Shown piece by piece: positions 52,242 to 58,155 of a DNA stretch of 64,000 nucleotides; within the stretch, counting starts at the first letter, position 1, and each line of letters starts with the position of its first letter. Location: assembly GCA_036496425.1 (NCBI GenBank), contig DASXLG010000367.1, positions 1-64,000 on the forward strand, given 5' to 3'. A program made the translations under genes and the position numbers. Below the pieces are notes generated by a model, which was not told the origin of the DNA, searched no databases, and saw nothing but the letters and a program-made list of their open reading frames with translations. Source of the stretch: Terriglobia bacterium. Lineage in GTDB: Bacteria; Acidobacteriota; Terriglobia; 20CM-2-55-15.

Positions 52242-55200
52242 TTAGTGAAAATCGTGCGACGCTACCGGGGCATTGCTGACCGGCAGCAGTTCAAGCCTGG
52301 CCGTCTTTACGGAAACCACGTTGTCGACATTCTGAAGACGGCCGTCGACGAGCAGGAACTTGCCGGACACGATCGTGAACCGGTTCTGCTCGAAGATGTC
52401 GGGTGTGATGATGACATTCGAAATTCCAGTCTCATCCTCGAGGCTCAGAAAAACAAATCCCTTGGCCGTTCCCGGCCGTTGCCGGCAGATTACTGCGCCG
52501 GCAACACGAACGTGCGCGCCATTAGGGATTGTTGTCAGGTCGCTGGCGCAAAGAACTCCCATTTCATTCATTGCATCGCGGTAATACGCCATCGGATGTG
52601 GTCCGACCGTCATGCCGGTTCCATGAAAATCCGCAACGAGGCGTTCTTCGGAAGTCATTTGCGCCAGCGGCGAGTCTCCATCGGCTTCGTCGATCGGCTC
52701 CAGTAACGGACCGGTTTTCCGGTTCGCGCGTTCGACCTGCCACAGCGCGTCGCGCCGGTGGATACGGTGTTCCAGATTCAGGAAATTCATCGCTCCTACT
52801 TCCGCGAGGAGAATCAATTCCCGTTTCTGTAATTCCGGAACGCGGCGCGCCAGATCGTCCACAGACGTGAATGGAGCCCGGTTGCGAGCTTCGACAAGCG
52901 CATGCGCGGCGGATTCGCGCATGCTTCTGACGTAACGCATCCCCACGCGCATGGCGCCATGTTCGAGAGTGCAGAGCCAGTCCGATTTCGTGATGTCGAT
53001 CGGTTTGACCTTCAGGCCGTGACGTTGCGCATCTTTGACCAATGTCGCGGGACTGTAAAAACCCATCGGCTGGTTGTTGAGCATCGCCGCCGTATATGCG
53101 GCGAGGTAATGACATTTCAGGTACGCGCTGGCATAGGCAAGCAATGCGAAACTGGCGGCATGCGACTCCGGAAATCCATAAAGCGCAAACGACGTGATGG
53201 AATGAATGATCTGATCCTGCACCTCGCCGGCAATCCCATTCTGATCCATTCCCTGGCGCAGTTTGACCTCGACCTCCTTCATCCGCCTTTCGGACCGTTT
53301 AAACCCGAACGCGCGGCGCAATTCTTCTGCCTGGCCGCCGCTGAATCCTGCGGTCAGCATGGCCATTCGCAGCAATTGTTCCTGGAAGAGCGGCACACCG
53401 AGCGTTCGTTTCAGTACAGGTTCGAGCGATGGATGCGGATACGCGACAGGCTCCCGCCCCTGCCGCCGCTTTAAATATGGATGCACCATGTTGCCGACGA
53501 TCGGACCGGGCCGGATGATCGCCACCTGCACGACGATATCGTAAAATCGGTCGGGCCGCATCCGAGGCAGGCACGACATCTGCGCGCGGCTTTCAATCTG
53601 GAACATGCCGACCGTGTCCGCTTTTTGCATTGCGGCGTACGAGGCGGGGTCGTTTTCGGGAAGATGGGCGAGATCGACTTCTTCATCATAATGATCCCGG
53701 ATCAGGTGGATGCAATCCTCCATGACCGCCATCATTCCCAGCCCCAAGAGATCGACTTTCACGATGCCCACATCGGCGCAGTCGTCCTTGTCCCATTGCA
53801 CGACGTTGCGGCCCGGCATTGTCGCCGGTTCCAGCGGTACGACCGAATCCAGCTGGCCCTGGCAGATCACCATGCCGCCCGAATGCTGTCCGAGGTGGCG
53901 CGGCAGATCCTGCAATCGCAGGCACAGCTCGAGGAATTTTCGGATGCGTGGCTGCCGCATATCGAAGCCGGCGGTATGGAACTGCGCTTCCAGCGTATCG
54001 GAGGCGTCTTTGTATTCGAAATGTCCCACCAGGCTGGAGAGGCGATCAAGCGTGGACGCATCGAAACCCAGCACTTTCCCGGTTTCACGCGCCGCGGACC
54101 GGCCGCGATAGGTAATGACATTCGCCGTCATTGCGGCCCCGAGCGCGCCATACCGTTCGTACACATATTGAATGGCGCGTTCGCGTTGATTGCCGCTGGG
54201 AAGGTCGAGATCGATGTCCGGCCACTCGCCGCGTTCTTCGGAAAGGAATCGTTCGAAAAGCAGGCCCATTTTCACCGGATCGACCGCGGTAATACCCAAC
54301 GCATAACAGACGGCGCTGTTCGCCGCCGAGCCGCGGCCTTGAATGAGGATATTGTTCTTGCGGCAGAACTGGACAATATCCCAGACGATCAGGAAATAAC
54401 CTTCCAGGTGCAGCTTCTCGATCAACGTCAGTTCACGCTCGATCTGTTGCCGTGATTTTTCATCGTAGGGCTGGAAACGATTCCGCGCGCTTTCAGAGGT
54501 GCGTTTGCGCAGAAAAGAAGCCATCGTCTCGCCGTCGCCTACTGGATATACCGGAAACTCATAACCCAGGTCTTTCAATGTGAATCGCAGGCGTGAGGAT
54601 ACTTCGCAGGTGTTGGCGGCCGCTTGGGGGACGTCTTTAAAGAGCCGTGTCATCTGCTGTGCCGTTTTCAAATGCCGCTCGGAGTTTTTCGAAAGCAGAC
54701 GGCCAGCGGTTTCCAATGTCCGGTGGTTTCGGATGCAGGTGAAGACATCGAGGATCTCCCGTTGAGCGGGCGTTGCATAGCGCACGCCATTGGTGGCAAT
54801 CAGCGGAAGACGGAATGTTTCCGCAAGCGCGATGGCTTGCTGATTGACGGCTTCTTCTTCGCGGTCGTAGTGGCGCTGGAGTTCGACATAAACGTTCCGG
54901 CAACCGAAAATTCCGGTTAGACGGTCGAGCGCACCGCTGCCGTTCCTGTTGCGGATAGCGGTGGTGAGCGGCCCGTGCTCACCGCCGGTCAGGCAGATCA
55001 GCCCGCGCGCATGCGCGGCCATCTCATCTTCTGTGACTGCGCCTTTGCCTTTCGGCGCGCGCAGCTTCATGCGCGTCAGCAGACGGCAAAGGTTCTGGTA
55101 GCCCTCCCGCGTTTCGGCAAGCACTGGATAACGGATGCCGGTTGTGGCGGTCACCTCCGCGCCGATATGGGCTTGAATGCCGGCCTTCTTCGCCGCCAGG

Positions 55201-55358
55201 TGAAATCGCGGTGCGCCGTAGACGCCGTCCCGGTCCATGAGCGCCATGGACGGCATGCCGTATTCCGCGGCGGCTCCGATGAATTCCTCGGGCAGGGCGG
55301 CGCCGTCGAGAAAACTGAATGCGGAGCCGGCATGAAGTTCGATGTACGGCGCGGTCAA
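52242..55358 (-). CDS. dnaE2: Error-prone DNA polymerase III alpha subunit
   Basis: A 1038-residue C-family polymerase of the DnaE2 type. The N-terminal PHP domain starts PYIELHAGSAFSFLDGAALP. Polymerase motifs include QGRGSAANSAVCYALGITAV, PDIDLDLPSGNQRERAIQYV, GLGMMAVMEDCIHLI and the C-terminal OB-fold domain (GAHVRVAGAVICRQRPGTAKGF). The TTG start at 55358 overlaps the imuB stop (TTGA), giving the length normal for the family; the ORF extension upstream is inside imuB. It works with ImuA and ImuB in SOS mutagenesis and lesion bypass. Confidence 0.93.
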   Translation of the reverse strand: MTAPYIELHAGSAFSFLDGAALPEEFIGAAAEYGMPSMALMDRDGVYGAPRFHLAAKKAGIQAHIGAEVTATTGIRYPVLAETREGYQNLCRLLTRMKLRAPKGKGAVTEDEMAAHARGLICLTGGEHGPLTTAIRNRNGSGALDRLTGIFGCRNVYVELQRHYDREEEAVNQQAIALAETFRLPLIATNGVRYATPAQREILDVFTCIRNHRTLETAGRLLSKNSERHLKTAQQMTRLFKDVPQAAANTCEVSSRLRFTLKDLGYEFPVYPVGDGETMASFLRKRTSESARNRFQPYDEKSRQQIERELTLIEKLHLEGYFLIVWDIVQFCRKNNILIQGRGSAANSAVCYALGITAVDPVKMGLLFERFLSEERGEWPDIDLDLPSGNQRERAIQYVYERYGALGAAMTANVITYRGRSAARETGKVLGFDASTLDRLSSLVGHFEYKDASDTLEAQFHTAGFDMRQPRIRKFLELCLRLQDLPRHLGQHSGGMVICQGQLDSVVPLEPATMPGRNVVQWDKDDCADVGIVKVDLLGLGMMAVMEDCIHLIRDHYDEEVDLAHLPENDPASYAAMQKADTVGMFQIESRAQMSCLPRMRPDRFYDIVVQVAIIRPGPIVGNMVHPYLKRRQGREPVAYPHPSLEPVLKRTLGVPLFQEQLLRMAMLTAGFSGGQAEELRRAFGFKRSERRMKEVEVKLRQGMDQNGIAGEVQDQIIHSITSFALYGFPESHAASFALLAYASAYLKCHYLAAYTAAMLNNQPMGFYSPATLVKDAQRHGLKVKPIDITKSDWLCTLEHGAMRVGMRYVRSMRESAAHALVEARNRAPFTSVDDLARRVPELQKRELILLAEVGAMNFLNLEHRIHRRDALWQVERANRKTGPLLEPIDEADGDSPLAQMTSEERLVADFHGTGMTVGPHPMAYYRDAMNEMGVLCASDLTTIPNGAHVRVAGAVICRQRPGTAKGFVFLSLEDETGISNVIITPDIFEQNRFTIVSGKFLLVDGRLQNVDNVVSVKTARLELLPVSNAPVASHDFH

Positions 55359-56716
55359 TCGTAGACTCCGTGGGCGTACCAGCGATCCAGATGGACGTCG
55401 TAATAGATACGGTAAAGCGCATCGAGGACCTCGATATCCCATTCCTCGCGATCCCATGTGTTGGGCCGCCACCAGTCACCCGACGTGCGCCACGGTCCGC
55501 TCGCTGTGGCCACCGGTCCATGCTTGCCATGCCACGCGATCCAGCTGGGGATGCCGCCGCGCAGTTGGACGGTGGCTTCGAGCGGCGGGCGGAAAACACG
55601 ACAGGATAGATTGCTCTCCCCGCTCAAGGGCCGGAGGCCCGACAGAGTGTAGCCCCAGCCGTAAGGCTGGGGTGAACGGTCTGTAACAGCGGGCAGCGCC
55701 GGAGGTGTGTAAGTCGGGCCTCCGGCCCTGTTGGGCAACAGGCCCGTAGCGCCCGCGGCACTCGAGAACCTCTTGACTGCAATCCCATCCGGGCGATGCG
55801 TATCCAGAATCTCCGGCGCACCGACATTCTCCTCACCCACCACCGCCTTCAACCGCGCTAACGTCAGCTCCAGTTTTTCCGGCTCCGGCGAGAGCGGCAC
55901 GAACAACCCGTTCTGCACCACGCGCGGTTTTGCCGGAATTGCTTCCAGCTCCACTCGGCGAATCGCCTCCCGGGCCGGATGCGCTTCCAGATCCAGGGTC
56001 AGGAGCCGCGTCAGCAGCCGCGCATTCCTTACAGGCAGCGGCAGATTCAAAACCCGCAAATACTTTCCCAGCGCCAGCCGCACTTCATGCGTTGCGAGAT
56101 TCCTCGATCGCATCCGCGAGCAGATCTGTTCCAGCATTCGCGACAAAATGAATGTCAGCGGCTCGATCGTCGTGATTTCATAATCCAGTTCCAGGACTTC
56201 CACGAATCGAACCGGATCCACGTGCGGCACCAGCGTGCGGGCGCCAGAGCCGCGCGCCATCTTGTGAAGCTTGGCGCCGTCCTGGCCAAGACGCTCCGCC
56301 ACCTGAATCGGCGGGAGTTGCGCAAATGCGCCGAGCGTGCGGATGCCCCAGCGGTCGAGCGTTTCCAGAATTTCGGAAGAAGGGGACAGAACCTGCAGCG
56401 GGAGATGGTTCAATCGCGCCGCTTCGGTTCCGCGATTCACAACCGTGATGCCGCTGAACCCGCGCGCGGCGCAGATGGCCGCATCCGCATTCGCCGCCAG
56501 CGCGATATTGGCCTGGATGCCGCGTTCGCGCACCCGTTCGGCGACCTGCTCGGCAATCTGCGGATACGATCCGAAAAGCCGCTCCAGTCCTTCCGCATCG
56601 AAAACAACGGTACCGGTCGATGTCTTTTCCACGCGCGGCGAGAACGCGGCCGCGCAGTCGAGCAGGATGGCATCCGTTTCAGCGGATGCATTCGGAATAT
56701 AGATGCACGCGAACAT
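55355..56716 (-). CDS. imuB: Y-family polymerase-like protein ImuB, with in-frame repeat insertion
   Basis: A 453-residue non-catalytic Y-family relative: FACIYIPNASAET replaces the acidic palm start, FDAEGLERLFGSYPQIAEQV is the usual second motif, and the HhH-type GIRTLGAFAQLPPIQVAERL and little-finger region follow. Between FSSAAGATGLLP and LSGESNLSCRVFRPPLEATV a stretch of ~34 residues (NRAGGPTYTPPALPAVTDRS, PQPYGWGYTLSGLRP) is encoded by a 103-bp inverted-repeat element and has no counterpart in the family. ImuB is the hub that binds ImuA, DnaE2 and the beta clamp. Start at 56716 within the 45-bp repeat boundary. Confidence 0.88.
   Translation of the reverse strand: MFACIYIPNASAETDAILLDCAAAFSPRVEKTSTGTVVFDAEGLERLFGSYPQIAEQVAERVRERGIQANIALAANADAAICAARGFSGITVVNRGTEAARLNHLPLQVLSPSSEILETLDRWGIRTLGAFAQLPPIQVAERLGQDGAKLHKMARGSGARTLVPHVDPVRFVEVLELDYEITTIEPLTFILSRMLEQICSRMRSRNLATHEVRLALGKYLRVLNLPLPVRNARLLTRLLTLDLEAHPAREAIRRVELEAIPAKPRVVQNGLFVPLSPEPEKLELTLARLKAVVGEENVGAPEILDTHRPDGIAVKRFSSAAGATGLLPNRAGGPTYTPPALPAVTDRSPQPYGWGYTLSGLRPLSGESNLSCRVFRPPLEATVQLRGGIPSWIAWHGKHGPVATASGPWRTSGDWWRPNTWDREEWDIEVLDALYRIYYDVHLDRWYAHGVYD
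55627..55729. repeat. 103-bp inverted-repeat element inside imuB
   Basis: Perfect 17-bp terminal inverted repeats AGGGCCGGAGGCCCGAC (55627-55643) and GTCGGGCCTCCGGCCCT (55713-55729), with an internal hairpin CCCCAGCC-GTAA-GGCTGGGG. The reading frame of imuB passes through without a stop. It appears to be a palindromic repeat that has inserted into a coding region and been kept in frame, comparable in kind to the protein-embedded palindromic elements of Rickettsia. Confidence 0.85.
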
Positions 56717-57452
56717 GAGTTACTGGTTTCGCCCTGTCGGGCGCATATTCGCTCCGCTCATGAGTTAGTGGTTTCGCCCTGTCGGACTCACATTCGCTCC
56801 GCTCATGGGATTTCAAAGAGCGTGGCCTGCGGGAGCGCACCACTTCGATATTCAAATTCAAGCCGTCCAGAAGGGTCGACCATTCCGCGCCACTGGTTTT
56901 CATTCGGAGCACGAGTGCGGCGGCGGATTTGACGATACTGTCGGAACTGATGACAACGAGCGCAGTCGGCGTCTTCTCGATCGTGCGTTGAAATCGGAAC
57001 CACGATGCCAGGGAGATCGATTGAACGTGCGGCAGCGGAAGATCCGTCAGATCCATCACCACGCGGCCGAAACCGCCGCCCTGCAGCAACAGATCCGTGG
57101 ATTTCAGAACCTGATCGAGTTTGTGGCAGCGCACCCACAACAAACGCTGCAAGTCCAGGCCAGCGGCCGCCGCCGATTTCGGATCGAACGCGTCCGTTCC
57201 ATCCACCAGCGCACAGACTTCATCGCCGGCCGTGGCTTCCACAAGGATGGACACCATGGCCGACGTGCGTCCGGATGTCGGCGGGCCAAAAATTTCGGTG
57301 ATGGCGCCGCGGGGCAGTCCTCCCGTCAGCGTGTCCAAGGGTGCGATTCCTGTCGGAACGCTTTCGAGAACACGTCGGTCGAGGTCGGTAAATGGCAATG
57401 GAACCCGTTCACTCAAGGCGGATTCCAACCGGGAGCGGATCACTGATTGCAT
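56679..57452 (-). CDS. imuA: RecA-like mutasome protein ImuA
   Basis: A 257-residue RecA-fold protein: GIAPLDTLTGGLPRGAITEI, then Walker A GPPTSGRTSAM, later VRCHKLDQVLKSTDLLLQGG and GFGRVVMDLTDLPLPHVQSI. ImuA is required with ImuB and DnaE2 for damage-induced mutagenesis. Start at MQSVIRSRLE (57452). The C-terminal ~45 residues from SHERSECESDRAK onward are encoded by the two 45-bp repeat units and sequence beyond them, and overlap imuB by 38 bases. Stops in the other frames fall at the repeat boundary, so the ancestral C-terminus probably ended near RSRRPRSL. Confidence 0.85.
   Translation of the reverse strand: MQSVIRSRLESALSERVPLPFTDLDRRVLESVPTGIAPLDTLTGGLPRGAITEIFGPPTSGRTSAMVSILVEATAGDEVCALVDGTDAFDPKSAAAAGLDLQRLLWVRCHKLDQVLKSTDLLLQGGGFGRVVMDLTDLPLPHVQSISLASWFRFQRTIEKTPTALVVISSDSIVKSAAALVLRMKTSGAEWSTLLDGLNLNIEVVRSRRPRSLKSHERSECESDRAKPLTHERSEYAPDRAKPVTHVRVHLYSECIR
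56716..56805. repeat. 45-bp tandem duplicate (ATTCGCTCCGCTCAT family), locus 2
   Basis: Units 56716-56760 and 56761-56805, each TGAGTTASTGGTTTCGCCCT ... ATTCGCTCCGCTCA, differing at a few positions. Same period and same last 14 bases as the pair at 43487-43576. It lies at the imuA/imuB junction; it contributes the ImuA C-terminus and reaches the first base of the imuB start codon. Confidence 0.9.
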
Positions 57453-57478
57453 AAAGTTAATCGAGAACAGATTTCTTA

Positions 57479-57498
57479 TACCGTACATTTGTATGGTA
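57479..57498. promoter_or_regulatory. Inverted-repeat operator between imuA and udgX (candidate LexA site)
   Basis: TACCGTACA-TT-TGTATGGTA: 8 of 9 arm positions pair. It lies 26 bases upstream of the imuA start codon and covers the first udgX start codon. imuA-imuB-dnaE2 operons are usually under LexA; the acidobacterial LexA motif is not something I can confirm here, so the assignment is inference. Confidence 0.6.
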
Positions 57499-58155
57499 GT
57501 CAATCCGATGCCGAAACGAATTGAAACGACAGCACTTCCTTTGATTCCACCCGATCCGACGATTCCCAGACTGCGTCTTGCGGCCTCGAATTGCCGCGCC
57601 TGTGAACTGTGGAAACGGGGTACCCAGACCGTTTTTGGAGAAGGCGGCCCGAAAGCCCGGGTCATGCTGATTGGAGAACAGCCGGGGGATCAGGAAGACA
57701 TCCAGGGCCGCCCATTTGTCGGACCTGCGGGAAAAGTTCTCGATAAAGCTCTACAGGAAGCAGGCATTGATCGGGACGACATCTATGTCACGAATGCGGT
57801 GAAACACTTCAAATGGGAGCCACGAGGGAAGCGGCGTATCCACAAAAAGCCGAACTCGATGGAAATCACCGCCTGCAAACCGTGGATCGAAGCGGAAATC
57901 GACGTTGTGAACCCCGACGTTATCGTCTGCCTCGGAGCGACCGCCGCACAGGCGCTGCTCGGCCGCCAGTTCCGGGTTAGTATCCAGCGCGGTACATGGG
58001 TTTCATCGCCCTATGCGCCTTTCGTGATGGCCACCGTCCACCCCTCATCGCTGTTGCGTGCGCCGGATGAAGAAACCCGCCACCGCGAAACGGAACGTTT
58101 CATCGAGGATCTCCGGCTCGTGCACGAAGCACTGAAGAAACATAAGGTTGCATGA
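57493..58155 (+). CDS. udgX: UdgX-type uracil-DNA glycosylase
   Basis: A 220-residue 4Fe-4S uracil-DNA glycosylase superfamily protein. Motif A GEQPGDQEDIQGRPFVGPAG, the UdgX-specific loop KWEPRGKRRIHKKPN with H117, and motif B ATVHPSSLLRAPDE are present; Cys 34, 37, 128 and 146 fit the iron-sulfur ligands. In UdgX the His of KRRIH attacks the sugar and leaves the protein covalently linked to the DNA after uracil removal. Met1 (57493) lies within the inverted-repeat operator; Met6 (57508) is an equally likely start. It is divergent from the imuA mutasome operon, suggesting shared control. Confidence 0.9.
   Translation: MVVNPMPKRIETTALPLIPPDPTIPRLRLAASNCRACELWKRGTQTVFGEGGPKARVMLIGEQPGDQEDIQGRPFVGPAGKVLDKALQEAGIDRDDIYVTNAVKHFKWEPRGKRRIHKKPNSMEITACKPWIEAEIDVVNPDVIVCLGATAAQALLGRQFRVSIQRGTWVSSPYAPFVMATVHPSSLLRAPDEETRHRETERFIEDLRLVHEALKKHKVA

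Follow-up and report, generated by a model that had tools for sequence, protein, structure and literature searches.

LexA control of the imuA-imuB-dnaE2 cassette is already known in Caulobacter, Pseudomonas and mycobacteria (PMC10421592, PMC3765255), and the SRAP protein HMCES/YedK is recorded as a neighbour of UmuDC or of ImuA-ImuB-DnaE2 (PMC3765255). A further described system is the COG1573-COG4277 uracil-DNA glycosylase operon, which is under LexA in Bacteroidetes and is cited for Verrucomicrobia and Alphaproteobacteria, in a paper that does not use the name UdgX (PMC8565304). UdgX is defined by a motif A with its glutamine (GEQPG), a KRRIH R-loop carrying the crosslinking histidine and a motif B of the form HPS(S/A)(L/V)(L/V)R (PMC10359453). 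Its physiological role has been called largely unknown (PMC10359453), and the papers on the Mycobacterium smegmatis enzyme do not mention an SOS context (PMC10359453, PMC10776899). In the literature searched, no paper was found that brings the terms 'UdgX' and 'SOS response' together; subscription literature may already describe some of what follows.

The window analysed here is a stretch of 64,000 nucleotides from a soil-type acidobacterium, a Terriglobia bacterium (contig DASXLG010000367.1), in which a udgX gene diverges from an imuA-imuB-dnaE2 mutasome. The locus is like the known LexA-regulated cassette in its three genes and in the predicted LexA operator at the imuA promoter, and differs from it in having udgX on the divergent side. 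It is also like the COG1573-COG4277 operon in combining a gene of the UDG superfamily with predicted LexA control, whereas the gene in the window is a stand-alone KRRIH-type udgX that shares its operator with a mutasome. The arrangement had been proposed in an initial annotation made from the sequence, and the genes proved real when examined with protein profiles.

The genes imuA, imuB and dnaE2 are co-directional on the minus strand, with the gene order and profile matches of an ImuA-ImuB-DnaE2 mutasome. The error-prone DNA polymerase gene dnaE2 (52242-55472) matches NF004225 (PRK05672 error-prone DNA polymerase) with 1238 bits against a cut-off of 939; its annotated start overlaps imuB, and the true start probably lies near 55355. 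Next to it, imuB (55355-56716) encodes a Y-family-like protein (Pfam IMS) with a shortened N-terminal palm. Over 56500-56716 it is short by about 60-70 N-terminal palm residues relative to the ImuB of another acidobacterial genome, G425, which would fit a protein without catalytic activity. The RecA-like mutasome accessory protein ImuA (257 amino acids, 56679-57452) was recognised by Pfam RecA (60 bits) and by syntenic orthologues in congeners; the profiles NF033429 (ImuA) and Rv3395c (ImuA') both match under their cut-offs. The 3' end of imuA (56717-56815) carries two near-copies of a HERSEYAPDRAKPVTHERSE-like repeat, as if the reading frame had been extended by a dispersed repeat, and in the congeners G398 and G399 different repeat arrays lie near the 5' end of the gene.

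On the plus strand, udgX (57508-58155) encodes a predicted uracil-DNA glycosylase/crosslinker of 215 amino acids that scores 287.7 bits with TIGR03914 (cut-off 189.95) and can be aligned to solved UdgX chains along some 200 residues (E 1.8e-64). As in the M. smegmatis enzyme (PMC10359453, PMC10776899), GEQPG, KRRIH and HPSSLLR are intact, and they align residue for residue with the solved chain 6iod. By these motifs the protein is a member of the KRRIH-type UdgX family with predicted crosslinking activity. The same structural alignment identifies it as a bare catalytic domain with no extension of the kind that recruits partners. The start codon affects two of the figures first given for the locus. 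A gap of 40 bp and a crosslinking histidine at residue 117 hold if translation begins at the in-frame ATG at 57493, which falls within the palindrome described below. The congener G397, which starts at the downstream ATG (MKRELK aligned with MPKRIE), favours instead the ATG at 57508, so that the histidine becomes residue 112 and the intergenic region spans 55 bp (57453-57507).

Within this gap lies a 20-bp inverted repeat with one arm mismatch, TACCGTACATTTGTATGGTA (57479-57498), with the start codon of udgX 9 bp away. The initial annotation had pointed to an inverted repeat here, and it is indeed the sole such match within the window (shuffle expectation 0.00). Read by eye, an imuA promoter on the minus strand (57475-57503) surrounds it, with TTGACT at 57503-57498, a 17-bp spacer inside the operator and TATAAG at 57480-57475. 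The clear promoter elements around the box point toward imuA alone, and no sigma70 promoter serving udgX could be recognised in the 55-bp gap, either by a consensus scan or by eye. With only 55 bp between the start codons, any udgX promoter within the gap would overlap the operator.

Searching the 6.16-Mb genome with the 20-mer at up to 3 mismatches gave two sites, one in the udgX/imuA gap and the other directly upstream of the single canonical lexA gene, where the box is a perfect palindrome, TACCGTACATATGTACGGTA. Looser searches added weaker matches that sit in open reading frames and have no promoter layout; a third near-match (C86:2474) was dropped on these grounds. In the GTDB family of the window, the box is present at 8/8 lexA and 8/8 imuA promoters read, and a ninth lexA with the box occurs in G399. 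The layout TTGAC-[box]-TA(T)A is constant, the box filling the -35/-10 spacer at every one of these promoters. The -35/-10 spacer is the classic operator position for repression. A consensus promoter scan was blank at either promoter, its -10 rule demanding a final T and so excluding TATAAA and TATAAG. Across 13 genomes, a composite promoter-operator pattern matched at lexA and imuA promoters only, and it went unmatched in two genomes without an ImuA match, G402 and G404. There the ImuA search gave RecA matches only, the LexA-like match is weak and no operator was found anywhere; mutasome and LexA site appear to have been lost together. Because the box recurs in the promoter spacer at all lexA and imuA promoters read in the family, the palindrome is almost certainly a LexA operator, as judged by position and conservation. 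To our knowledge, the operator sequence ACCGWACANNTGTWCGGT is not one known from the literature.

A site at both lexA and recA had been anticipated, and the lexA half of this expectation was confirmed. At the recA promoters of eight family genomes (L004, L240-L246) no box was found, the best upstream match having at least 7 mismatches; this half of the expectation fails, yet LexA control is not thereby refuted. In the window's family recA is apparently not part of the LexA regulon, and the detectable inverted-repeat regulon consists of lexA and the mutasome/udgX locus. A separate palindrome, whose ends read CTGTAGCGGCGGTC...GACCGCCGCTACAG, is inserted upstream of recA in G400 (L243) and in the udgX-imuA gap of G397 (L172/L239); it is probably a repeat dispersed within the genus.

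Most other lexA promoters of Acidobacteriota carry, in the same -35/-10 spacer, a direct repeat of the form TTCGC-N6-TTCGC, TTCGCYTTTTATTCGCYTAYA (L142-L170, L201-L229). The LexA recognition helix differs accordingly, reading 'SLATVHKHL' in these direct-repeat lineages and 'YP-ATVQDHI' in the window's family, where it is shorter by one residue. This family has exchanged the direct repeat for an inverted one, and its recognition helix has changed as well. In the direct-repeat genomes, a matrix built from 35 lexA-type direct-repeat sites detects a box at almost all imuA promoters. In G425 (the same genome as L022) udgX again diverges from imuA with a direct-repeat box in the gap (33.1 bits). The orientation of this box toward udgX was considered and dropped as a clue, since the box is oriented in the same way at imuA in every direct-repeat genome and is therefore no pointer to control of udgX.

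The matrix also places a direct-repeat box at the head of 10-11 of the 12 rSAM(TIGR03916)/TIGR03915-UdgX operons, 2.1-3.1 kb upstream of the UdgX domain, the count of 11 including the 3.1-kb case (L106) by matrix match and not by gene-by-gene reading. These operons look like the acidobacterial counterpart of the COG1573-COG4277 operon. The boxed fusion operons are L106, L115, L121-L124, L126, L128, L129, L131 and L132, and the R-loop of the fusions is K[LFI]RLH (KRRMH in L115) as against KRRIH. In total, 19 matches of at least 14 bits occur across 1.46 Mb of UdgX loci. At most other UdgX loci a LexA box was not found directly upstream, and LexA boxes of other groups (CGAAC-N4-GTTCG, TGTTC-N4-GAACA, GTTC-N7-GTTC and others) showed no clear enrichment upstream of UdgX loci at large. 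In family f26 (L120, L113, L117), udgX lies on the same strand as recA and upstream of it, adjacent or a few genes off; the box of that family's lexA type was not found at these loci.

The adjacency of udgX and imuA, for which a survey of Acidobacteriota had been suggested, exists but is uncommon. UdgX itself is sporadic, with 40 of 396 genomes of the phylum above the cut-off, and it adjoins imuA in 2 of these 40; further cases are G425, G397 and two congeners that retain remnants of the gene. In addition, most of the UdgX genes surveyed are not near a mutasome. A divergent udgX/imuA pair was seen in the window genome, in G397 (across two contigs), in G425 and in G025. The insertion in G397, an inverted repeat, separates udgX from the box by about 110 bp. 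In G025, lexA adjoins udgX convergently, and no box is visible in the udgX/imuA gap. Outside the phylum, Rariglobus (Verrucomicrobiota) has lexA-imuA-imuB-dnaE2-udgX all reading the same way, and TGTTCATCTGAACA precedes lexA. By a rough estimate, the three cases of linkage other than the window, among about 117 loci, compare with a chance expectation of about 0.05. Mutasome-linked genes are scattered over the UdgX tree (5 label changes), and an AU test did not reject a single clade (p 0.22), so we do not claim a repeated origin of the linkage.

Within the genus the box outlasts udgX. G398 keeps a frameshifted C-terminal third of the gene and G399 a remnant of 23 residues, both with an intact box; on the evidence of these remnants, we regard the linkage as old in the genus and dispensable. 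In G396, G376 and G401 udgX was not found at the imuA locus, though box and imuA are kept. The box is therefore independent of udgX.

Other genes also occupy the side of the imuA LexA box that faces away from the mutasome: SRAP in G007 and G061, dnaE2 in G187 and G289 (L193, L194), UdgX, and also unrelated genes. The two SRAP genes diverge from imuA across the box in L190 (799-1395) and in L195 (1010-1339), the latter copy looking truncated, and the window genome has its own SRAP gene elsewhere, on C190. SRAP is a suicide crosslinker of abasic sites; it differs from UdgX in fold and in substrate, acting on abasic sites and not on uracil. The likeness lies in the divergent slot, seen for SRAP in these two acidobacteria, and the two proteins have parallel SOS placements in the phylum.

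We consider it probable that LexA, bound at one shared operator, shuts off both imuA-imuB-dnaE2 and udgX, and that damage frees both sides, with UdgX then acting as a cap. In the undamaged cell, LexA on 57479-57498 would turn off imuA-imuB-dnaE2, and the same bound repressor would block any RNA polymerase starting udgX within the 55-bp gap. After DNA damage, RecA-driven self-cleavage of LexA would release both sides; UdgX could then excise uracil and cap the abasic site covalently, presumably shielding exposed single strands, while the mutasome copied past other lesions. Joint control is supported by the operator being common, genome-wide, to the udgX/imuA gap and lexA alone. Further support comes from the G425 gap with its own box, from the boxes heading the rSAM/TIGR03915-UdgX operons and from the loci of G025 and Rariglobus; against it stand the congeners that keep box and imuA with udgX decayed or gone, the lack of a box in the G025 gap, at recA and directly upstream of most other UdgX loci, and the distance between udgX and box in G397. 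Joint damage-induced expression, as originally proposed, gains a predicted LexA operator at lexA and imuA, but lacks a recognisable udgX promoter. Repression and induction of udgX are nonetheless likely, since the gap leaves no room for a udgX promoter free of the operator.

A less probable reading, though one that deserves weight, is that the operator serves imuA alone and that udgX is a passenger that happens to lie next to it, either constitutive or with its promoter elsewhere than in the box. This reading would explain why the -35 and -10 elements around the box are read toward imuA, why sister species retain the box where udgX is decayed or gone, and why the box of G425 has the usual imuA orientation; on the other hand, a udgX promoter placed in the gap would have to overlap the operator, dnaE2 and SRAP occupy the identical slot elsewhere, and other UdgX operons of the phylum bear a box of their own. 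That UdgX-DNA adducts are a substrate passed to the DnaE2 mutasome, in a dedicated pathway from uracil to mutation, had also been raised and appears unlikely. The recurrent proximity of udgX to a mutasome with a shared operator would fit such a pathway, but the UdgX of the window has no extension that could recruit partners, most UdgX genes do not lie near a mutasome, and the literature proposes RecA-dependent or proteolytic resolution of the adducts (PMC10359453). The parallel with SRAP suggests a common type of job in which abasic or uracil sites are capped covalently, and not a role in delivering adducts to DnaE2. Binding of the palindrome by a regulator other than LexA is very improbable, given that the sole canonical lexA, like lexA in all relatives, carries it as an autoregulatory site, that the LexA recognition helix changes where the direct repeat gives way to the inverted one, and that the box is missing where no ImuA was found (G402, G404).

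Beyond joint control by LexA, we offer tentatively, as a possible but rather doubtful generalisation, that the mutasome LexA operator offers, on its divergent side, a place for suicide DNA crosslinkers, UdgX here and SRAP in relatives. The natural job of UdgX would then be that of an SOS-induced cap in single-stranded gaps, covering abasic sites derived from uracil until they are repaired by recombination or error-prone synthesis.

New here are the recognition of a KRRIH-type UdgX as the probable SOS partner, the operator it shares with the mutasome and the two forms of acidobacterial LexA operator. UdgX is widely used as a uracil-tagging tool. Its own role is now open to direct test, through damage induction and through its effect, together with DnaE2, on survival or mutation spectrum. 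The operator shared with an error-prone mutasome and the LexA boxes at other acidobacterial UdgX operons would place UdgX in the SOS response.
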